Shown one piece after another: positions 20,425 through 33,185 of a DNA stretch of 33,185 nucleotides (within the stretch, counting starts at the first letter, position 1; each line of letters starts with the position of its first letter). Under the pieces are notes generated by a model. That model saw only the letters and a program-made list of their open reading frames with translations. It was not told the origin of the DNA and made no database searches. The position numbers and the translations under genes are program-made. The stretch is taken from the NCBI GenBank assembly GCA_023489405.1, contig JAMDCW010000050.1, positions 6,818 through 40,002 of the forward strand, written 5' to 3'. Source of the DNA: Chloroflexota bacterium (lineage in GTDB: Bacteria > Chloroflexota > UBA4733).

Positions 20425-21894
20425 CTACAACGTTGTCGCTGGCAGCTTGGCCTGCGACTGGTGCCGATCGGTAATTGGGAATGGGTATCCTTGGCGTGCG
20501 AGACAACCATAACAAAATTGACGATGAAGCGCTGCTTCAGGGTGATCTAGATCAGTAAGCGCTCCAGTAGCTCGCGCCAATCCTTCTAAGCTAAGATAGC
20601 CCAAACTCGTTGCATTAATGTACTCTGCGATTTGATCAACGCTGTGGTTACTGGCGATAAGCTCTGTTTCTGTAGGTATATCAATACCGAAGTAACAGGG
20701 GTGTTTGAGTGGTGGCGAGCCAATGCGTACGTGAACCTCTTTGGCGCCAAGTCGCCGTAATGAGCGAATGAGGATAGAGGGCGTGTTGCCGCGGACTATG
20801 GAATCGTCTACGACGACAAGCCGTTTCCCCTCGACCTTACTTCTGACGATATTGAACTTGAGGTCCACTTCTAACTGCCGCAGCCGTTGATCAGGCTTGA
20901 TGAACGACCTATCAGCATAACGACTTGCAATAATTGGCTCCGCGTATGGTAAGCCACTCTCTTCGGCATACCCTAAGGCAATCGGAATTGCCGTTTGAGG
21001 TATTGGCACCACGAGATCAGCATCCGCTGGATATTCACGAGCAAGCTGCCGGCCAAGTTCTTCGCGTACGCTGTAAACGTTTTGGCCACGTAGTTGACTT
21101 GTTGCATCACTGAAGTAGATATATTCGAAGATGCAGAGCGCCGAGTGCGACCGGTTGCCGATAGAAGAGAGAGAAACACGGCCCGAAGAATCGATGCGTA
21201 CGACTTCTCCAGGATTAATCTCACGCTCAAACGTGGCCCCTACACGATCGAGCGCGCAGGTTTCGGAGGCTAGCATCCACCCCGCACCTAATCTTCCCAG
21301 ACATAGTGGGCGCATACCATAAGGGTCACGAACGCCATACAGACAGCCGTCTGCCAGAAGCACGAGAGAGTATGCACCACGTAGGCGGTGTGCTACGTGC
21401 CGGATCCGCTGTTCCATCGGTAGCCCTACTTGTTCGAGCAGCAGAGCAGCGATGACCTCGCTGTCAGTTTCTGATCTCAAAGGTATCTGCTTGACCTCGT
21501 GGCGCAAGCTAGCAACGTTCATCACATTACCGTTGTGGGCTAGCGCCAGCGAATCGTACAGGAGCCGGCAATGGGAACGGAGCACGAAGGGAGCGGCATT
21601 CTCTACCGCACTTGAACCGCTCGTTGAGTAGCGAACGTGACCTATGCCAAAGTGTACTTGAGAAGATGAATGCGCTCCGTGAGGAAACACATCACGTACT
21701 CGTCCCATTCCCGTATGTGCATCGATGTCCCCGTCCGGGAGGAGCAGAGCGATGCCGGCACTTTCTTGGCCTCGGTGCTGTAGAGCATTGAGCGCAATAA
21801 CGAGATACTGCGCGATGTCGATCTGGCCAGTGGGGTCGAAAACGCCTGCGATTCCGCAATGATCTCTTAGGACATCTTCTTCGACCGAACGCAC
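20425..21894 (-). CDS. purF: Amidophosphoribosyltransferase
   Basis: DHCGIAGVFDPTGQ (N-terminal nucleophile Cys after a short propeptide), GHVRYSTSGSSAVENAAPF, VVDDSIVRGNT. Confidence 0.95.
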   Translation of the reverse strand: MRSVEEDVLRDHCGIAGVFDPTGQIDIAQYLVIALNALQHRGQESAGIALLLPDGDIDAHTGMGRVRDVFPHGAHSSSQVHFGIGHVRYSTSGSSAVENAAPFVLRSHCRLLYDSLALAHNGNVMNVASLRHEVKQIPLRSETDSEVIAALLLEQVGLPMEQRIRHVAHRLRGAYSLVLLADGCLYGVRDPYGMRPLCLGRLGAGWMLASETCALDRVGATFEREINPGEVVRIDSSGRVSLSSIGNRSHSALCIFEYIYFSDATSQLRGQNVYSVREELGRQLAREYPADADLVVPIPQTAIPIALGYAEESGLPYAEPIIASRYADRSFIKPDQRLRQLEVDLKFNIVRSKVEGKRLVVVDDSIVRGNTPSILIRSLRRLGAKEVHVRIGSPPLKHPCYFGIDIPTETELIASNHSVDQIAEYINATSLGYLSLEGLARATGALTDLDHPEAALHRQFCYGCLARQGYPFPITDRHQSQAKLPATTL

Positions 21895-21996
21895 CTTTTT
21901 CTCCCTTGACCAGTATACACTAGGCCAGGTAGCCCTGCTTACTGATCCTGAACGTGAACGATGTTTGCACCGATGGTACGGATGTCGGCGATATAC

Positions 21997-22002
21997 TATA
22001 AT
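21997..22002 (+). promoter_or_regulatory. Candidate -10 element TATAAT upstream of the RND operon leader
   Basis: Consensus hexamer in the intergenic region; no strong -35 at 16-18 bp. Confidence 0.3.
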
Positions 22003-22168
22003 GGCGTAGCTTACTGGTTGGATAGTAAGGGGTGGAGATAGAGGGTATCGCTATTCTGATGCCACAATTGCTCTCCTTGCGGAATTGATAACGAGGAAGG
22101 AACAAGCCTACCTGCACTATTGTCGTCATGGGAAATACGACAAGCCCTAAGAAGGGGGGTGAACGACT

Positions 22169-22243
22169 GTGAGGCTGCGTATGGAGCGCACATGGTGGCG
22201 CTCGAATCCTGCCCTTGAGGGTAGGAGCGCACCATGTGGCTAA
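22169..22243 (+). CDS. Putative leader peptide (uORF) MRLRMERTWWRSNPALEGRSAPCG*
   Basis: GTG start preceded by AAGGGGGGTG SD with about 8-nt spacing. Overlaps the RND gene start in a different frame; its stop TAA (22241-22243) lies just past the RND ATG (22234). Confidence 0.5.
   Translation: MRLRMERTWWRSNPALEGRSAPCG
22184..22238 (+). promoter_or_regulatory. Hairpin sequestering the SD and start codon of the RND pump gene (putative translational attenuator)
   Basis: CACATGGTGGCGCTC (22189-22203) is complementary, with one bulged G, to GAGCGCACCATGTG (22225-22238), which contains the ATG. CTGCCC (22209-22214) pairs with GGGTAG (22219-22224) over the SD. Alternative hairpin GAGCGC (22184-22189)/GCGCTC (22198-22203). 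Confidence 0.55.
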
Positions 22244-25200
22244 CGCGCTATGCGCTGCGTAATCCTATTGCCGTCGCTGTCATTTGTCTCCTTTTGGTTG
22301 TGATCGGAATCTATGCCTACTTTACCCTCGGGATTAGTCTTATTCCGAACGTTACTTTCCCTGGGGTCACCGTCGTAACAACTCTTCCAGGAGCGGACCC
22401 GCAAACGATCGAGACACAAATTACCAAGCCTATTGAAGATGCTATTGCGCAACTGAGCAATGTCGACACTATTACTTCGACTTCTTCAGAAGGGAGAAGT
22501 GTTGTCAATGTCCAGTTCACGTCATCGGCGAATGTTGATCTTGCTCCGATTAATGTCGAACGCGCGGTTAACTCTGTGCAGAATCAGTTCCCTGCAGGAA
22601 CAAACGCTCCGAGCATTCAACAGTTCAATTCGAGTGCCATTCCAGTCGAAGTCATAACATTGTCAGGCCCCCAATCAGCGAATGAGTTACAACAGCTTGC
22701 AACGAACCGCCTCCAGCGACCATTTCAAGCCCTACCAGGAGTACAAAGCGTGCAAGTTGTTGGTGGCTCCGCACGGGAAATCCACGTAGAAGTCAATGTC
22801 AACAAGCTGGTAGGGTATCAGATCGGCCTCAATCAGATTCAAACGGCTATCGCCTCGTCGGAATTGCAACAGTCAGCCGGCATACTTCCTAGTGGCCGGA
22901 TGGATACATCGGTGGTGTTCGATGCCTTATCGGCGACGCCTCAACAACTGAAGAATATTGTTGTTAGTTCTACTTCCCGTGGAAACGTGAGGCTTGGTGA
23001 GCTTGCGACGATTAGTGATGGCTTCAAGAAGGATACATCTTTTTTTAGAGTTGACGGAAAGTCAGCTATAGCTCTCATTGTAAGGAAGCTCTCCTCCGCT
23101 AATACGCTCGTGGTAAGCCATGAGGTTGACCGGGAAATCAAGCTTCTAGCTCCTTCGTTGCCTGCTGGGACTAAGCTAAGTGTGGTTTTCAGCCTAGCTG
23201 ACTATACCCAGCAGTCCTTCAATACTGTACAGCATACACTTATTGAAGCGATCATCTCTACAGGACTTATTCTCCTGATTTTTCTTCATACATGGCGTAG
23301 TACGCTCATTGTGCTTGTAGCTATTCCCACATCGCTGCTGACTGCTATAGCAGTAACTTTCTTCCTTCACTATGACCTCAATCTTTTTACGATGCTGGCA
23401 TTGACCCTGAGTGTTGGTATCCTCGTTGATGATAGTATCGTTATTCTTGAAAATATTTATCGCCATCTCTTTTTACGGGAATTGCCGGTTTTTGCCGCAA
23501 TAAATGGCCGTAGTGAAATAGGTTTTGCTGCTATTACTATTACGTTTGTTGATGTGGTAGTCTATGCTCCTATTGCTTTCATTCCCAATGTTGCCGGTCA
23601 GATCCTTGGCCCTTTCGCTTTAGTAATCGCTAGTGCGACATTGACCTCACTATTGGTCTCATTTACCCTCACACCTTTACTGGCCAGCCGTATCTTAACT
23701 CCCGAGGTAGCGTTGCAAGAAGGAAGCGGCTACCTTGCCCGTTTTGGACGTAAGTGGAATCACGGTTTCGCACAGCTCACAGCATTGTACAGTCGTACCC
23801 TGGATTGGACACTAACCGGATACTGGGTGAAATTTGGTCCGTTGCGTCTAAGAGCACGCTTCTTAGTCGTGTTAATTGGTGTCTTCACAATCCTTGTTGC
23901 TATTGGTTTCGTTGCCAGTGGCAGCATTGGAGTAGACCTTTTCCCTACCGGTGACCAGAGTGAAGTAGATGCTACACTGACTATGCCACCTACTACAGCG
24001 ACCCGAGAGACTGAGCGTGTCGTAGGACAGATGCTCACCAAAATACATCAGTTCCCAGAAGTGCGTGAGTATTACAGTGATGTCACTAATAATACTGCGC
24101 AATTGACATTCTTACTTGTTCCCATCAATGATCGTAAACGCTCATCTGCTCAGATAGCTGAAAGTATTCGTAAAAATCTGGACCCCCACCTTCCGGGTGA
24201 GCATTTTACTACCAGCCTGCCCAATGCTTTCGCCTTTAGCAGTGGCAGTGGTGGTCAAGATCTCCAAATTGCTATCAGAGGTGATGATCCTACGATCCTG
24301 TCTGAGCTGACTACTCGAGTAGAGCAGACGCTGCGAAATATTCCAGGAGCAGTGGCTATTACCAGTTCATCGGATGTTGTGCAGCCCCAGATGGTCTTCC
24401 ACTATAACCGCGCTGAAGGGAGTGATCTCGGAATTTCCGCTCAGCTTGCCGCCCAGACACTTGCGCTAGCCGTGAATGGCCAGGTAGTGAGTGAGTTCCA
24501 GCAGCCTGGGCGGGCCAATGTCGATATTCGACTCCGTGCAGACCAGGCATTTCGATCATCTCCACCCCGGCTTGTCACGCTGCCACTCTTGTCATCGACG
24601 GGTCAATTCGTTCAGCTAGGACAGGTCGGATCATTCGTTTCGCAAACAGCGCCCTTGAGTATCGACCATTATAATCGCCAGCGCAGCATTACTGTGAGCG
24701 CGTCGGTCGAGGGGCGGCCTGTTGGATCCGTAATCGCGGATGCCAGTACGGCAATCGCCAGAATCCCCGTACCACCAGGCTACTCTATTCAGCTTGGTAG
24801 CCAGTCACAAACCTCTATGACGACCTTCGCCGACCTTGGCAAAGCCCTCCTTATTGGTATCTTGCTGGTGTATATCCTCATGACCTTCCTATTCCGTTCT
24901 TTTACACTGCCGTTTTCTGTGCTTGTTTCCCTACCACTCGCGTCATTCGGTGCTCTTGGTGCTATGGTCCTCACTAAAACGCCATTTACCTTATTTTCTG
25001 CCCTCGGCTTTTTCCTACTGGTGGGCCTCGTAGGTAAAAACGCCATTCTCCTCGTAGATTACACCCATACGCTCAGAAAACGCGGGAGAAGCCGGACCGA
25101 TGCCCTACGAGAGGCTGGACCGATACGGTTGCGCCCTATCGTTATGACGACTACGTCTGTTATTGTGGCGCTCGTTCCAGTAGCGATTGGCATTGAAGCA

Positions 25201-25485
25201 GGGTCAGAACTGTTGAAAGCTTCAGCGATCGTGTTAATCGGCGGGCTGCTTACCTCAACGTTGTTGACACTGGTCTTTGTGCCGGCAATGTATACGTACT
25301 TTGACGATCTTCAGGAGCATCTACTGCATCGTTGGCGGCGGCTTACTTCCCCACGGGAACTTACTGAAGAGGAAAAAGCTTTTCTGTCGGTGAAGCACGA
25401 TGGAACCGCCGTCGCTAACAACGATGGATACGCCCTACCCCAGGCTCACGATGATGAAGTCGCACTGAAAGTACTAGGAGAATGA
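22234..25485 (+). CDS. Efflux RND transporter permease subunit (HAE1/AcrB-like)
   Basis: MWLTRYALRNPIAVAV, ISLIPNVTFPGVTV, VGILVDDSIVILENIYRHL, GLVGKNAILLVDYTHTLR. Confidence 0.93.
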   Translation: MWLTRYALRNPIAVAVICLLLVVIGIYAYFTLGISLIPNVTFPGVTVVTTLPGADPQTIETQITKPIEDAIAQLSNVDTITSTSSEGRSVVNVQFTSSANVDLAPINVERAVNSVQNQFPAGTNAPSIQQFNSSAIPVEVITLSGPQSANELQQLATNRLQRPFQALPGVQSVQVVGGSAREIHVEVNVNKLVGYQIGLNQIQTAIASSELQQSAGILPSGRMDTSVVFDALSATPQQLKNIVVSSTSRGNVRLGELATISDGFKKDTSFFRVDGKSAIALIVRKLSSANTLVVSHEVDREIKLLAPSLPAGTKLSVVFSLADYTQQSFNTVQHTLIEAIISTGLILLIFLHTWRSTLIVLVAIPTSLLTAIAVTFFLHYDLNLFTMLALTLSVGILVDDSIVILENIYRHLFLRELPVFAAINGRSEIGFAAITITFVDVVVYAPIAFIPNVAGQILGPFALVIASATLTSLLVSFTLTPLLASRILTPEVALQEGSGYLARFGRKWNHGFAQLTALYSRTLDWTLTGYWVKFGPLRLRARFLVVLIGVFTILVAIGFVASGSIGVDLFPTGDQSEVDATLTMPPTTATRETERVVGQMLTKIHQFPEVREYYSDVTNNTAQLTFLLVPINDRKRSSAQIAESIRKNLDPHLPGEHFTTSLPNAFAFSSGSGGQDLQIAIRGDDPTILSELTTRVEQTLRNIPGAVAITSSSDVVQPQMVFHYNRAEGSDLGISAQLAAQTLALAVNGQVVSEFQQPGRANVDIRLRADQAFRSSPPRLVTLPLLSSTGQFVQLGQVGSFVSQTAPLSIDHYNRQRSITVSASVEGRPVGSVIADASTAIARIPVPPGYSIQLGSQSQTSMTTFADLGKALLIGILLVYILMTFLFRSFTLPFSVLVSLPLASFGALGAMVLTKTPFTLFSALGFFLLVGLVGKNAILLVDYTHTLRKRGRSRTDALREAGPIRLRPIVMTTTSVIVALVPVAIGIEAGSELLKASAIVLIGGLLTSTLLTLVFVPAMYTYFDDLQEHLLHRWRRLTSPRELTEEEKAFLSVKHDGTAVANNDGYALPQAHDDEVALKVLGE

Positions 25486-27362
25486 AGAGAATAAGCGCTC
25501 CGTGGAGACTGTTTTCGGTTGCTGGTTTGGTCGTGATAGTACTGACAAGCTGCGCTACCCAGGCTACGCCTGCCGTCAAGACTCCCGCAACGCTGGTGCA
25601 AGTTGCTCCAGTACAGCGAACAACGATTGTTGCCACCTATAGCTTTACAGGCTCTGTCGTGCCACTATCATCGGTTAATGTTCAGCCTCGCCAGGGCGGT
25701 CGGATCATCACAATGTCAGTGTCGGTTGGGCAAACTGTTCATACCGGCCAAGTTTTAGCAGAGCTCGACCATACCCAGCAGCTTCTCGCAGTAGAGCAGG
25801 CAAAAGCGGCTCTCGAACAGGCACAGGCAAAGTTAGATGCTCTCAAGGCTGGTCCACGTCCGGAACAGGTAGCTCAAGCGAAGATCGCGGTCGAGATGGC
25901 TAAGTCGAAGCTTCAGGCTATGCTCAATCCGCGCCCAGAGACGATCGCCCAAGCTCAGGCACAGCTCACCATCGCGCAACAAAACGTGCAAGCGCTTCTA
26001 ACAGGACGGCCGCAACAGGTCGCGCAGGCAAAGCTTGCGCTTGATCAAGCAAAACAGCGCCTAGCGACTATCCAAGCAGGTCCACGCCCTGAGGTTGTTG
26101 CTCAGGCCCAAGCTCAACTGACTTCTGCCGAGGCACAGCTTGCTGCGCTGCGCAATGGACCGACTGCTGCTGACTTGGCTCCGTTACAGCAAGCTGTAGA
26201 AGTAGCGAAAAATCAGCTCAACGCTGCCCAGATCTCGCGCGATGCAACCTGTGGCCAGGTAGGAAAACCTGCGGGATTTGGTAATGTTGGTACCCAGGCC
26301 GCTTGCAACGCTGCTAATGCGCAGGTCAATGCCGCTCAATCAGCAGTCAATGAAGCACAGGCGGCTCTGGCAAAAGCGGAACAGTCCCCAAGCAGTACTG
26401 ATCTCCAACGAGCGCAGGCAGCGGTAAAAGCGGCTGAAGCTGCTCTTCAGCAAGCTGAACATCCGTATACAGCTCAAGACTTCATACAAGCGCAAGATGC
26501 TGTCAGCACTGCAGAACAGCAACTGGCAATTGCTGAGCAACCTGGATCTGCAGAAGATATCGCAAAAGCGCGAGCAGTCGTGCAAGAGAACGAAGCAGCT
26601 CTCGCTCTAGCTCAACACCCCGCTTCGGCACAAGACATCCAGCAAGCTAAGCTCGCGGTGCAGAATACAGAACAGCAGCTTGCTCTCACCGAACATCCAT
26701 ATACTGCACAAGATGTCGAACAAGCGCAAGCAGTAGTTGATCAAGCCAGGGCTGCCTACGATCAAGCTGAACAGAACCTGAAAGATATGACAATTACTGC
26801 ACCAATCAGCGGCGTTGTAACACAGAAGAACTTTTCTCGAGGAGCCCTCGTTGTCCCATCGAACACCGTACTTACTATCGCAAGCCCGCAGGACGATATC
26901 GAGATCAATGTTCCAGCGACAGAAATCGCTGGGGTTGCTGTTGGCACGCCTGCGTTGATTGCAGCGAGTGAATCCTCTCCTAGCACAACGGTCTCTGGCA
27001 AGGTTACGTCCGTAGCACCGAGTGCCAATGCCAAGAGCCGGGCATTCCTGATCAAAGTGATGCCGAGCGCAAAATCTGTGCACCTTCTTCCCGGTACTTT
27101 TGCAACGGTCAGCCTGACACCACTGAAGCACACCAATGTTCTTGCTGTCCCGAATGATGCTATCGTCCAGCGACAGGGTAAAGCCGTAATTTTCATCGTC
27201 GAAAATGGCCTTGCTATGCAGACCGCTATCCAGACAGGCATCAGTAACGGAACAGTCACGGAAGTTCTGTCAGGGCTCAAAGTGGGCCAGGAAGTGATTA
27301 CTCAGGGACAAGATACGCTTGTCAATGGCGATCACATCACAGTGGCGGCAGCGGCAGGCTAG
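25482..27362 (+). CDS. Efflux RND/HlyD-family periplasmic adaptor, lipoprotein, with expanded ~26-aa repeats
   Basis: Lipobox LTSC after a signal peptide, biotinyl-lipoyl-like half motifs (SVGQTVHTGQVLAELD; TITAPISGVVTQ). ATGA overlap with the pump gene. Confidence 0.88.
   Translation: MKRISAPWRLFSVAGLVVIVLTSCATQATPAVKTPATLVQVAPVQRTTIVATYSFTGSVVPLSSVNVQPRQGGRIITMSVSVGQTVHTGQVLAELDHTQQLLAVEQAKAALEQAQAKLDALKAGPRPEQVAQAKIAVEMAKSKLQAMLNPRPETIAQAQAQLTIAQQNVQALLTGRPQQVAQAKLALDQAKQRLATIQAGPRPEVVAQAQAQLTSAEAQLAALRNGPTAADLAPLQQAVEVAKNQLNAAQISRDATCGQVGKPAGFGNVGTQAACNAANAQVNAAQSAVNEAQAALAKAEQSPSSTDLQRAQAAVKAAEAALQQAEHPYTAQDFIQAQDAVSTAEQQLAIAEQPGSAEDIAKARAVVQENEAALALAQHPASAQDIQQAKLAVQNTEQQLALTEHPYTAQDVEQAQAVVDQARAAYDQAEQNLKDMTITAPISGVVTQKNFSRGALVVPSNTVLTIASPQDDIEINVPATEIAGVAVGTPALIAASESSPSTTVSGKVTSVAPSANAKSRAFLIKVMPSAKSVHLLPGTFATVSLTPLKHTNVLAVPNDAIVQRQGKAVIFIVENGLAMQTAIQTGISNGTVTEVLSGLKVGQEVITQGQDTLVNGDHITVAAAAG
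25851..26771 (+). repeat. Region encoding about ten degenerate 25-26-aa repeats (GPRPExVAQAqaxLxxAxxxLxAL; HPxTAQDxxQAqaxVxxAeqqLAla)
   Basis: Direct reading of the translated sequence: two arrays of about five units separated by an insert containing two Cys. Confidence 0.75.
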
Positions 27363-27444: not shown

Positions 27445-28389
27445 GTGTTGACAATAGCCGAATTGCAGGTCTTTGACGCTGTCGCTCGCTATCATCACTT
27501 TACTCGCGCAGCGGAAGAGCTTGGTATTGCCCAACCATCAGTAACTTATCATGTTCGGGAGCTTGAGCGTCATCTAGGCGTCCAGCTTGTAGAGCTTGTT
27601 GGACGGCGAATACGCTTGACTGATGCAGGAGAACGTTTGGCTGTTCGTGTTGCTGCTATCCTAAGCGATCTTCACGATCTTGATGAGGAGATGCTCGAGT
27701 ATCAAATCGGAGCGCGTGGCCAGTTGCGGTTGGGGGCAACCCGCACTGTGGGAGGCTATGCTCTTGCCCCGGCGCTTTTGCAGTTCTATCGGCGTTTTCC
27801 TAAAGCTTCTTTTTCTCTCCAGATCGATAACACGGTAGCGATTGAGCGACTCTTGCTTGAGCGTCAGCTTGATCTAGCGCTCGTAGAATGGGAGGTGATA
27901 AGTCCTGACTTACTGGTAGAGCCACTGCGGCAAGATGCCCTACTGCTCGTGTGTTCTCCTGAACACCACCTAGCACATCAAGCAGGTGTCGATATCACGG
28001 AGCTCAGCGGTCAAGCATTCGTCATGCGGGAACGCGGTTCCGGGACGCGAGCACTAGCAGAGAAGGCACTTGCCCCAGTCCTCCACTCACTGCGGATTGT
28101 CTTGGAAATTGCCGAACCTGAGGCAATCGTTCGCGCTGTTCAAGCAGGGATCGGTCTGTCGTTTCTCTCGGAAACAATCGTCCGACATCATCTCCAGGAA
28201 GGTACGTTGGTTGCTATTCCTCTATCTCACGTAGATCTCGTTCGGAACTTTTCGCTCGTTCGTGTTGCTGATCGTCGTGCGTCAACAGTAGTGGCGGCGT
28301 TTATAGAGATTGTCCGAAAAACGCTGCGAAACAATAGGCACGCAGCGAAAACTCCTGAAGGCATATCTAATGGTAAGAGGGTTTTATAA
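27445..28389 (+). CDS. LysR family transcriptional regulator
   Basis: HTH FTRAAEELGIAQPSVTYHVRELERHLGVQLVELVGRRIRLTDAGERL plus a substrate-binding domain; GTG start. Confidence 0.93.
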   Translation: MLTIAELQVFDAVARYHHFTRAAEELGIAQPSVTYHVRELERHLGVQLVELVGRRIRLTDAGERLAVRVAAILSDLHDLDEEMLEYQIGARGQLRLGATRTVGGYALAPALLQFYRRFPKASFSLQIDNTVAIERLLLERQLDLALVEWEVISPDLLVEPLRQDALLLVCSPEHHLAHQAGVDITELSGQAFVMRERGSGTRALAEKALAPVLHSLRIVLEIAEPEAIVRAVQAGIGLSFLSETIVRHHLQEGTLVAIPLSHVDLVRNFSLVRVADRRASTVVAAFIEIVRKTLRNNRHAAKTPEGISNGKRVL

Positions 28390-28792: not shown

Positions 28793-31504
28793 GTGTATCA
28801 ACGTGCTACGATGAGTAGGCAATCGTCGGAGCCCTACGAATGGCGATTGAGAGGCTGCTCACCAGTGCACGCTACACATCGGCTCGGGAACTCTGCGAGT
28901 ACTGATGCCAGCGAAAGTTTCGGTGAGGTCCTACGTCGCTACCGCCTGGAAGCAGGGTTGACTCAGGAACAGTTAGCTGAAGGCGCGGAGATGAGTGTGC
29001 GTGGCCTTCAGAAACTCGAGCGTGGCCAGACGAGACCATACCGCGAAACCCTCGAGCGCCTTATTCAGGCGCTTCGACTCGAAGAAGACGAGGCGGCACA
29101 TTTGCGTCTATTGGGACGCCCCCAGCCGCGCCGCACAGATGAGCCTGATGCGGAGGTGATGCCTGATACCAGTGCCCACAATCTACCCAGGTTACTGACG
29201 GATTTGATCGGTCGTACACAAGAGCTTGCCGACCTCGAACGCCTCTTGAGCTCCGTTCGACTGATAACCATTACAGGGCCAGCAGGCATTGGCAAAACAC
29301 ACTTCACCATTTATGCCGCTTGGCAGCATCTAGCTCGCTATCGGGATGGAGTGTGGTGGATAGATCTCGCCGCTATTACCACTCCGACTAGCGTAGCCCA
29401 AGCGATAGCGAGCGCCCTCCAGATCACTGAGCAACCACCCTATCCAGTTGAAGAGACACTCTATCGATCGCTGCGCGATGACCAGGCGTTACTCTGTTTA
29501 GATGGTTGTGATCGTGTGATTATTCCAACAGCACACATCGTTGATCATCTTCTCCGTAGTTGTCCAGGCATCTGCATACTTGCTACCAGTCGCGAGCCTC
29601 TGCGTGTTTCAGGAGAACAGCTTCTCCGCTTACAGCCACTGGGATATCCCACAAACCCAAGATCGGTGACGGTGGAAGAAGCTTTAACCTGGTCCGCTAT
29701 ACACCTCTTTATCGATCGGGCGAGAGCGAGCGACCCAACTTTTGCTCTAACTTTGGAAAATCTTCCATACCTGCTTGAGATCTGTGAGCAGCTCGATGGA
29801 TTACCACTTGCTCTAGAATTAGCCGCAGGATGTGTCAGTGCGCTCAGCGTTGCTCAAATTGCGGAGCGATTGCATGAGCGCTTCATTCTACTGACGGGCG
29901 GGAGTCGAAGTGCTCCTCAGCGGCATCAGACGCTCCGTGCTGCCATCGATTGGAGCTATGATCTCCTCGACGCCGAACAGCAACGCCTATTTGATCGCCT
30001 CTCGATCTTTGCCAGCGGATGGGACCTGGAAGCTGCCGAAGCTATCTGTGCCGGTCCGGACCTTGAAACAGCACAGGTTGTTCAGTTGATGGTGCAGTTG
30101 GTTTCTCGATCTGTGGTGATGGCTGATACGCGCCATCCGTTAGCACGCCGTTACTATCTGCTTGAGACCCTCCGACTATATGGTCAGCAGCGTTTGCGCG
30201 AACGAGGTGAGCTGTCTGCAATGCGGGAGCGCCACGTTCGCTATTTTCTCGATCTCGCTCGTCAAGCCGCAGCAGAAAGCTCCTCACCTCAAAGTCGTTC
30301 ACTCTGGCTCGGACGAATCGAACGGGATGAAGCGAACTTCTGTGTAGCTTTCCAATGGCTCCACGAACACCGCCGTGTACGAGACCTCGCCGAACTGGCT
30401 AATGCTCTCACCGTCTACTGGCATATGCAGAATCACTACTCGGATGCTCAGGCAAGATTGAACCAGGTGCTGGCGTGCTCAGAGCTTGCGAGCTTTGAAC
30501 GAGAGCACGAACGCACACTCTACAATGCGGGCACAATAATGCTAGCTATCGGTGAATATCGGCGAGCGTGGGAGCTGCTCATTCGTGCCGTGGCTATCGC
30601 TCGCTCTTTGAATGATCCGATTGAACTGGCCCAGGTTTTGGGTAGTGCGGCAGAGGTAGCGATCCATAATCGTGAACGGTTCGCTCAGCCGCTCTTAGAA
30701 GAGAGCCTAGCTATCTATCAACGGAGTGGCGATCGTACAGGTGAAGCCAAGCGCCTTGGCCAGTTGGGTGTCCTGTTATTGTATGCTGGGAAAATAGAAG
30801 AGGGAACGAGCTTTCTCCAGCGCAGCGTGGCACTCTCTCAAGAAGTTGATGACGCCGTTGGAGTGGCTCACGCTGTTGCTGGCCTTGGTTTAGCGGCTTG
30901 TATTCTCGAGGATTGGGAACTCGCAGAGCGACACTTCCGCGATGCACGAACGCGCTATCGTGCTGTCGCCAATCGGCGCGGAGAAGGGAGGACGTTGTGC
31001 TCCTTGGCGCAAGTAGCCTTGCGAAGACAACAACTGACATCTGCTAGCCGGCTATTACTGGAAAGTCTTGAACTGGCTCGAGAAATCAATCTTCGAGACC
31101 TTGAAGCCTGGGCACTCCTTAATCTTGGACGGCTCTACCGGGAGCGACATAACTTTACTGCGGCAGTTGCACACCTTGCCGAATGCCTCACAATTCGCCT
31201 TACCTTAGGGTATGAGTGGGGCGTAGCCACCACACTGGCTGAGATTGGTGAGGTGTATGAACGGCAGCGCGAATGGCACCGGGCAGTCATATTTTATGCT
31301 GCTGCCGAACGCCGGTTTACTGCGCCAGAGCTGCTCGCTTCACCAGGTGATCCTAGCGGGTATCCGCTTGATCGATTGATCGAGAAGCTGAACACGCTAC
31401 GTCACAGACTAGGAGAAGAGAAGTGGCACCGAGCCTGGGAGTTAGGGCACGGCTTGGAAGACCGTGATCTCAATGTCCCTGGTGAGCAGCTCGTTCAAGT
31501 GTAG
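28793..31504 (+). CDS. XRE-type HTH plus NB-ARC (STAND NTPase) plus TPR transcriptional regulator
   Basis: FGEVLRRYRLEAGLTQEQLAEGAEMSVRGLQKLERG HTH, Walker A ITGPAGIGKTHF, QALLCLDGCDRVI, C-terminal TPR-like helices. The start could be ATG 28811. Confidence 0.9.
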   Translation: MYQRATMSRQSSEPYEWRLRGCSPVHATHRLGNSASTDASESFGEVLRRYRLEAGLTQEQLAEGAEMSVRGLQKLERGQTRPYRETLERLIQALRLEEDEAAHLRLLGRPQPRRTDEPDAEVMPDTSAHNLPRLLTDLIGRTQELADLERLLSSVRLITITGPAGIGKTHFTIYAAWQHLARYRDGVWWIDLAAITTPTSVAQAIASALQITEQPPYPVEETLYRSLRDDQALLCLDGCDRVIIPTAHIVDHLLRSCPGICILATSREPLRVSGEQLLRLQPLGYPTNPRSVTVEEALTWSAIHLFIDRARASDPTFALTLENLPYLLEICEQLDGLPLALELAAGCVSALSVAQIAERLHERFILLTGGSRSAPQRHQTLRAAIDWSYDLLDAEQQRLFDRLSIFASGWDLEAAEAICAGPDLETAQVVQLMVQLVSRSVVMADTRHPLARRYYLLETLRLYGQQRLRERGELSAMRERHVRYFLDLARQAAAESSSPQSRSLWLGRIERDEANFCVAFQWLHEHRRVRDLAELANALTVYWHMQNHYSDAQARLNQVLACSELASFEREHERTLYNAGTIMLAIGEYRRAWELLIRAVAIARSLNDPIELAQVLGSAAEVAIHNRERFAQPLLEESLAIYQRSGDRTGEAKRLGQLGVLLLYAGKIEEGTSFLQRSVALSQEVDDAVGVAHAVAGLGLAACILEDWELAERHFRDARTRYRAVANRRGEGRTLCSLAQVALRRQQLTSASRLLLESLELAREINLRDLEAWALLNLGRLYRERHNFTAAVAHLAECLTIRLTLGYEWGVATTLAEIGEVYERQREWHRAVIFYAAAERRFTAPELLASPGDPSGYPLDRLIEKLNTLRHRLGEEKWHRAWELGHGLEDRDLNVPGEQLVQV

Positions 31505-31729: not shown

Positions 31730-33185
31730 CTAATGAACGCGCGAGCCATTCCCATACGATCCTCCAGGCCTGACCACGGTAACGTGCGTAAGCGTATACG
31801 TAGAGCGCCCATCCCCGAGAAGCAGACGCTGGCCTGTCTGTAACTGATACAGTCCCACGACGATCTGGTAGGTGCCGGGTGCTGTGCTGGGAGGGACGGG
31901 GACTGCCAGATGATCCGCCACCACCTCATCGGCTACCCAATCATTGGTGGGGAGCTTTCCGCTCTGCGGTCGTGCGTCAAGCTGGAAGACCAATCGACCG
32001 CTCGCATCAAGCGCATGGAGGAAGACGGTGTAGTCCGCTGTTGGATTGCGGACTGCCTGCCATTGCAACGTTATGTCTAGCGACTTTCCCGCTTCTACGT
32101 GGTCCGGGACAGCGGCGCTGAGCAGCCGGATCGTCTGGCCAAAGGTGACGTTAGCGCGAAGAGGCAGCGGTGCCGGTAGGGGCGTTTGTCCACCGCTCGA
32201 TCGGACTACGAGGCGGGCTACGACGGGTTGCGGCTCCGGCTGCCCGGTGACTGTCTGCGCATGGAAGGGCTGGTTGGGGTGACCACGGGGATAGACGTAG
32301 ACAGAGAGCAGGGCGAGGCTCGGTGAAGGAGCATCCGGTACAACCCTCAACGTGACGACGTTGCTCACATTGAGTCCTGAGCGCCACTCAGGCGTAGGAA
32401 TGGTGCCACCAGGCTGAAGATCGCGCTGGGCGAGCAGCGTTCCAGTAGGACTACGAAGCTGGATGGAAAACGCCTCACGGACCGCCGCACGCTGCTCAAC
32501 ATGCCAGAGCAACGTCACCGTAAATGGTTCGCCTGGCGCAAGAGGGTGTGCTGGGACAGTCACCTGCGTCAGCCGTAGGGTGCCATACGTCAGTTGGGGA
32601 TCTACCGACTGCACGCGGTTAGCTGGTGTGGCAGCGACAACGGCTATATGATCAATATGAGCCTCTGGTGCGCCACCGTCGACGCCGAGATACACACCGG
32701 TGCGCAAGTTGACCAGGCGAATGTCCAGATTGTACTGACCTGGTGGCACGTTCGCTGAGAGTGGCACATTCAGCGTATCCTCGATGACTTCGCCAGGAAC
32801 CCAGTCGCTCGTTGGCAGCAAACCACCGTGCGGTATGGAAGTAACGGCGAATAGCTGATATCCATGGCTATCGCGCCCAATAAGCGTGACAGCGTAGCTT
32901 CCATCTGGTGGCTTCTCCACCGACCACTGCGTGGCTACCTGCAGGATCCCACCAGCAGGTACCTGTGCTGGTACCCCCACGCTCGTCAAGACGAGACGTC
33001 CGCCGAATATGATACCGGCCCGCTGCGGCAAGGGTGTCGGAGTAGGAAGAGGCGTGGTGTCTCGCACGGTATATGCCTCTACTACCGGGTCACCGAGAGA
33101 CCGACCGCTCGCAGTGGTAGCCGGAATACGCTGATCAGGTAGATATTCCGGATATACAAGGACAGGAAGGCGCCCAAGAAAAGGC
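31730..33185 (-). CDS. C-terminal part of a larger protein (partial, runs off window) with three tandem beta-sandwich-like repeats; possibly the tail of a membrane glycosyltransferase-type protein
   Basis: The track starts at GTG 33067, but the frame is open to the edge: PFLGRLPVLVYPEYLPDQRIPATTASGRSLGDPVVEAYTVRDTT... Repeats carry LPTSDWVPGEVIEDTLNVPL / IPTPEWRSGLNVSNVVTLRV / LPTNDWVADEVVADHLAVPV. Confidence 0.65.
   Translation of the reverse strand, partial: PFLGRLPVLVYPEYLPDQRIPATTASGRSLGDPVVEAYTVRDTTPLPTPTPLPQRAGIIFGGRLVLTSVGVPAQVPAGGILQVATQWSVEKPPDGSYAVTLIGRDSHGYQLFAVTSIPHGGLLPTSDWVPGEVIEDTLNVPLSANVPPGQYNLDIRLVNLRTGVYLGVDGGAPEAHIDHIAVVAATPANRVQSVDPQLTYGTLRLTQVTVPAHPLAPGEPFTVTLLWHVEQRAAVREAFSIQLRSPTGTLLAQRDLQPGGTIPTPEWRSGLNVSNVVTLRVVPDAPSPSLALLSVYVYPRGHPNQPFHAQTVTGQPEPQPVVARLVVRSSGGQTPLPAPLPLRANVTFGQTIRLLSAAVPDHVEAGKSLDITLQWQAVRNPTADYTVFLHALDASGRLVFQLDARPQSGKLPTNDWVADEVVADHLAVPVPPSTAPGTYQIVVGLYQLQTGQRLLLGDGRSTYTLTHVTVVRPGGSYGNGSRVH

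Follow-up and report, generated by a model that had tools for sequence, protein, structure and literature searches.

The window, i.e., the whole stretch of DNA that was analyzed (33,185 nucleotides), originates from a 57%-complete MAG of an uncultured Chloroflexota bacterium and contains an operon coding for an RND efflux pump. The pump genes and the regulator gene that follows them are located as follows:

22234-25485, forward strand: RND (AcrB-family) efflux permease, 1083 aa, the putatively controlled gene (Pfam ACR_tran, 4.4e-226)
25482-27362, forward strand: membrane-fusion (HlyD/RND_mfp) adaptor, 626 aa (TIGR01730, 1.4e-52, above the cut-off; HlyD_D23)
27445-28389: LysR-type regulator gene, 3' of the adaptor gene

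The start codon of the permease gene is secure, as in-frame TGA and TAG codons are located just upstream and the N-terminus (MWLT...) agrees with homologs. The adaptor gene, which overlaps the permease gene by 4 nt, is the next gene of the pump operon. This adaptor is long, and the order permease-then-adaptor contrasts with the adaptor-then-permease order of most homologs for which an adaptor could be located. Upstream of the permease gene, a divergent purF-like gene is found at 21894. Beside the pump operon, positions 28793-31504 encode a 903-aa protein containing an N-terminal HTH, an NB-ARC/NACHT-like ATPase and TPR repeats, an organization suggestive of a STAND-type regulator or of a defence-like protein. 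In addition, a 445-aa ORF on the minus strand (31730-33067) has a sub-threshold match to Pfam Nis1 (23.4 bits, for a cut-off of 27).

The start of the permease gene is surrounded by the following elements, whose pairings are predicted:

22189-22238, forward strand: main hairpin, predicted to sequester the Shine-Dalgarno (SD) sequence and the AUG of the permease gene (outer arms 22189-22203 and 22225-22238)
22189-22203, forward strand: 5' arm of the main hairpin, CACATGGTGGCGCTC
22225-22238, forward strand: 3' arm of the main hairpin, GAGCGCACCATGTG
22208-22225, forward strand: nested stem CCTGCCC-TTGA-GGGTAGG, covering the AGG of the permease SD sequence
22223-22227, forward strand: SD sequence AGGAG of the permease gene, recognized from the sequence (anti-SD duplex, -7.6 kcal/mol)
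22184-22203, forward strand: alternative hairpin GAGCGC-ACATGGTG-GCGCTC, rival of the main hairpin (-9.6 kcal/mol alone)

An initial annotation had proposed that a stem-loop locks both the SD sequence and the AUG of the pump mRNA. A sequence check confirmed the two arms, their single bulged G (22198 in the MFE structure), the nested stem, the SD sequence and the ATG at 22234, and the locking itself was borne out by folding. Indeed, folding of the 66-nt segment 22180-22245 yields -37.0 kcal/mol (z -5.49), both the SD sequence and the AUG being paired, and none of 200 dinucleotide shuffles was equally stable, while a 111-nt fold around the same start reaches -52.5 (z -3.83). Taken by itself, the main hairpin accounts for -31.4 kcal/mol and the nested stem (22208-22230) for -12.0 kcal/mol, the latter keeping the SD sequence paired in folding even when the outer arm is missing. 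In a background of 118 gene starts, drawn from 197 kb of this genome that were sampled as stretches and parsed with a crude ORF caller, the permease start region is the most stable one, the next fold being at -24.4 (mean -14.8, sd 4.7). Only one further start among these 118 (fold -22.2) has both its SD region and its start codon paired above 0.9. Likewise, opening the region from SD to AUG is predicted to cost 22.9 kcal/mol, whereas values of 3.5-14.0 were obtained at 16 other gene starts of the window. Sliding 66-nt segments as low as -37 were encountered about 6 times among 17,780 in the same genome. Hairpins of similar stability are thus found elsewhere, and the unusual part is the location of this one on a start site. 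Folding predicts that the start-site hairpin on the permease mRNA is real and exceptionally strong, and such stability should nearly abolish independent initiation of pump translation.

Searches for known elements were conducted around this site. A scan with Rfam 15 covariance models (21800-22500) returned no match up to E 1. No terminator-like site, with a T run behind a GC-rich hairpin as expected of a transcriptional attenuator or an intrinsic terminator, was detected between 21850 and 22300. The possibility of a repeat element was also rejected, the 3' arm having no second exact copy in the genome and 8 matches with at most two mismatches, close to the 4 of the control. Similar DNA was not found in a plasmid search.

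The element missing from the existing description is an ORF that reads through the whole structure. This leader ORF is absent from the annotation and had not been named when the stem-loop was first proposed:

22153-22162, forward strand: very strong SD sequence of the leader ORF, AGGGGGGTGA (anti-SD duplex, -14.7 kcal/mol)
22169-22243, forward strand: leader ORF (uORF), 24 codons, GTG start, TAA stop, MRLRMERTWWRSNPALEGRSAPCG (from the ORF listing)

The leader GTG sits 20 nt 5' of the hairpin, and the ORF traverses both arms before ending 7 nt beyond the pump AUG, its TAA (22241-22243) and the pump ATG (22234-22236) defining a 10-nt overlap in another frame. Using the anti-SD of the 16S tail CACCUCCUU, which was confirmed in two genomes of the same phylum, only 2 of the 3192 candidate starts of the window have an SD sequence as strong as that of the leader; the MAG itself yielded no 16S. 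Across the 197 kb of genome, 6 of 18,265 candidate starts reach -14.6; by these two counts, the leader SD ranks in the top 0.03-0.06% of candidate starts. The predicted cost of opening the leader initiation site has an ordinary value (5.9-7.6 kcal/mol). Furthermore, when 79 sampled genes whose upstream DNA is free were compared, the strongest overlapping uORF was that of the RND gene, which also has the strongest hairpin. The main argument that this arrangement is not due to chance is that two outliers located on separate segments, the hairpin and the leader SD, meet at one gene, both statistics being post hoc, calculated with the site already picked.

Within the leader, Thr-Trp-Trp-Arg codons (22190-22201) fall exactly over the hairpin's 5' arm, where tryptophan supply or ribosome arrest might be sensed. 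Further upstream, TTGCTCTCCTT (22068-22078) can pair with the leader SD (22152-22162) over 11 bp including G-U pairs (duplex, -13.9 kcal/mol). Owing to this pairing, a longer transcript might mask the leader as well, although the opening cost given above is still modest.

The initial annotation had also described a switch between two mutually exclusive pairings, in which an upstream segment would capture part of the 5' arm and thereby free the 3' arm. Both pairings are indeed present in the sequence, GAGCGC (22184-22189) being able to pair with GCGCTC (22198-22203) over 6 bp, and the alternative hairpin is the predicted fold of a growing transcript that extends only to 22232. However, the alternative state is less stable than the main fold: forcing the alternative hairpin costs 8.2 kcal/mol (MFE) or 6.6 kcal/mol (ensemble). 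Even once it is formed, opening the region from SD to AUG would still require 16.5 kcal/mol. The alternative hairpin alone thus fails to expose the SD sequence, since the nested CCUGCCC-UUGA-GGGUAGG stem stays in place, and according to these folds the two-state switch as first proposed does not work by itself.

The best reading of these data, which we hold with moderate confidence, is a hairpin-gated start of the RND operon that is translationally coupled to the leader ORF. Ribosomes would initiate at the GTG (22169), translate through the hairpin, melting both arms, and terminate at 22243, past the pump AUG. Reinitiation, or the entry of another ribosome, would then take place at the AUG (22234). 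As leader ribosomes would be the agents melting the hairpin, pump synthesis is proposed to depend on leader translation, and altered initiation on the leader, or altered movement along it, would translate into altered pump output. Slowing at codons 9-13 could reduce the barrier for a second ribosome. When a ribosome was modelled codon by codon, the permease SD remained paired until about codon 14, and with the ribosome beyond codon 17 both the SD and the AUG were unpaired and covered by the ribosome itself. Three features of a coupled leader, namely its own initiation site, a stop codon overlapping the downstream start and a structure-blocked RBS, are seen or predicted here. The opening of RNA structure through an upstream ORF is established as a model of coupling (PMC12548453), and reinitiation has been described after short leader genes located upstream of structural genes (PMC4833913). 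Counted against coupling, the -10 nt overlap between leader and pump is outside the enriched spacings of -4, -1 and -8 (PMC12548453), and a sigma-70 promoter scan near the leader found no recognisable promoter. The codon usage of the leader also counts against it: compared with gene chunks, it lies at the 2.8th percentile, 19% of noncoding chunks do as well, and it does not support a functional leader protein.

Conservation was investigated in the class, represented by three genomes in the ortholog search, and among more distant homologs. The pump was not found in the same-genus genome, whose purF contig stops inside the gene. In the same-family genome, only a 38% homolog was found, located elsewhere and not an ortholog; there, a succinyl-CoA-synthetase-like gene pair adjoins purF instead of the pump, and a contig encoding a 53-62% adaptor ends before any permease. 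A contig search retrieved mostly RND genes from other phyla (26-33%). None of about 34 homologs (34-55% identity) has a leader resembling the one described here, and the hairpin was absent from them. Whenever their flanks revealed the adaptor gene, it was usually directly upstream of the permease gene, and the leaders of these homologs are therefore not comparable. One homolog, L106 (53% identity), has the same order as the RND operon, with the permease first and the adaptor downstream. It possesses a 9-codon uORF with a strong SD (-11.1). The TGA of this uORF overlaps the pump TTG, and its CTCCT can pair with the pump AGGAG. Because its leader fold is not unusual (z -1.0) and another permease-first homolog, L120, is devoid of a comparable uORF, L106 is only a hint, and its analogous overlapping leader ORF may be taken as weak support for coupling. 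In a further homolog, L118 (G120:C116), a palindrome, CCCCCTTTCGC...GCGAAAGGGGG, was noticed some 50 nt ahead of the start of its RND gene (66-nt z -5.4). It partly covers the SD sequence of that RND gene and may act as a DNA operator, since it contains a promoter-like TTGACT-17-TATGCT.

Several other explanations can be considered. In an inducible attenuator of the erm/cat type, a stalled leader ribosome, for example at Trp-Trp-Arg (codons 9-11) through a ribosome-targeting drug or a shortage of charged tRNA, would free the 5' arm and a second ribosome would start the pump. The presence of a leader ORF, whose codons 7-12 coincide with the outer 5' arm, is in line with this mechanism, and leader control has already been described for efflux genes (BmrCD, PMC4191407; mef/mel, PMC4335068). 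In addition, a ribosome positioned at codons 9-13 (Trp-Trp-Arg-Ser-Asn) lowers the modelled opening cost of the SD-AUG region from 22.9 to 10.5-12.7 kcal/mol, values that ordinary genes also show, so that opening of the pump start by a stall over these codons appears energetically possible. However, with the ribosome at these positions the SD sequence remains 0.87-0.96 paired in the nested stem, owing to which stall-dependent induction would be incomplete. Moreover, the leader extends beyond the pump AUG, which erm leaders are not known to do. It contains no recognised arrest motif, no similar leader was found among the homologs at 34-55% identity, and formation of the alternative hairpin is not enough to expose the SD sequence. 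We regard a stall-driven attenuator as unlikely, and the attenuator interpretation of the initial annotation as partly supported: its erm/cat-like layout gains the leader ORF that it had not named, while this ORF overlaps the pump start and the alternative state does not release the SD sequence. A broader proposal, in which the RND mRNA is under direct leader-peptide control, with slowing at Trp-Trp-Arg (by inhibitors or Trp shortage) opening the hairpin and inducing the pump, and in which this control recurs in the permease-first RND operons of the phylum, is rather unlikely. The strong upstream SD could otherwise be a ribosome standby site next to a hairpin that simply keeps the pump at a constitutively low level, without meaningful translation of the leader. 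The poor codon usage of the leader and the accessible, very strong SD beside the hairpin would fit, but this SD is followed by a well-spaced GTG whose reading frame extends over the pump start, and a hairpin costing 22.9 kcal/mol to open would be hard to overcome from standby. We consider a standby site quite improbable.

The pairing could also have no regulatory role, being a chance or mutational quasi-palindrome, or the mRNA could begin 3' of the 5' arm. The lack of detected conservation and the equally stable hairpins elsewhere in the genome (about 6/17,780 segments) are compatible with such an origin. Against it, the site is the most extreme of 118 starts and coincides with a top-rank SD opening an overlapping ORF, and selection should act against a useless lock on the start of a gene for a large membrane pump. 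A fortuitous structure is in our view distinctly improbable. As for the DNA level, GGAGCGCACATGGTGGC and GGAGCGCACCATGTGGC could form two quasi-palindromic repressor sites 41 bp apart, with RNA pairing as a by-product. They constitute a direct repeat (14/17) whose 41-bp spacing corresponds to about four helical turns, a LysR-type regulator gene is nearby (27445-28389), and in the distant homolog L118 a palindrome was seen by eye to overlap a promoter-like sequence. Yet these sites would lie over the SD and start codon rather than over a promoter, the promoter scan being empty, and the second copy fits one half-site only. Palindromes of the 6-8-6 type with at most 3 mismatches occur at chance level in the window, and the near-continuous pairing, including the SD and AUG, exceeds the needs of an operator. 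An operator function appears very unlikely.

RND pumps are usually described as being under the control of transcription factors. If true, a leader ORF gating pump translation would directly link ribosome activity to efflux, in a phylum, the Chloroflexota, whose post-transcriptional control has received little attention. A cheap screen also follows from this arrangement, combining a deep start-site hairpin with an upstream overlapping ORF preceded by an outlying SD.

Attenuators of the erm/cat type require a leader peptide, and erm leaders are not known to extend beyond the target start codon. The RND start shares with these systems a leader ORF over the 5' arm, a hairpin predicted to sequester the SD and AUG, and a mutually exclusive alternative hairpin. 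It differs in that the leader crosses the entire hairpin and reaches the pump start, a coupling geometry, in that the alternative state keeps the SD paired and in that no known arrest motif was recognised. In the open-licence papers searched, no RND permease was found described with such a leader. The clearest leader peptide linked to an RND pump in the literature searched acts indirectly, via ArmZ: in Pseudomonas aeruginosa, the PA5471.1 leader peptide, ArmZ and MexXY form a pathway of RND pump control that senses ribosome inhibition (PMC12057347). A leader peptide governs RND pump expression there, as is proposed here, but PA5471.1 acts on the anti-repressor gene armZ, by a proposed transcriptional attenuation (PMC12057347), whereas here it is the start of the pump mRNA itself that would be controlled. 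The bmrCD and mef/mel systems (PMC4191407; PMC4335068) similarly have a leader ORF upstream of a drug-efflux operon. These systems use transcriptional attenuation and involve ABC or MFS-type pumps of Gram-positive bacteria, while no terminator-like site was found at the present locus. Translational coupling by unfolding or reinitiation (PMC12548453; PMC4833913) is also a close parallel. Here, the 24-codon leader gives no hint of encoding a functional product, the gene that would be controlled encodes an RND permease, the overlap is 10 nt instead of the common 4, 1 or 8, and the arrangement is predicted from sequence. As in the known examples, the upstream ORF ends at the downstream start and its translation is predicted to open an inhibitory structure over the downstream RBS, so that the RND start described here, on the basis of a single genome, is a candidate for leader-ORF coupling that resembles established cases.
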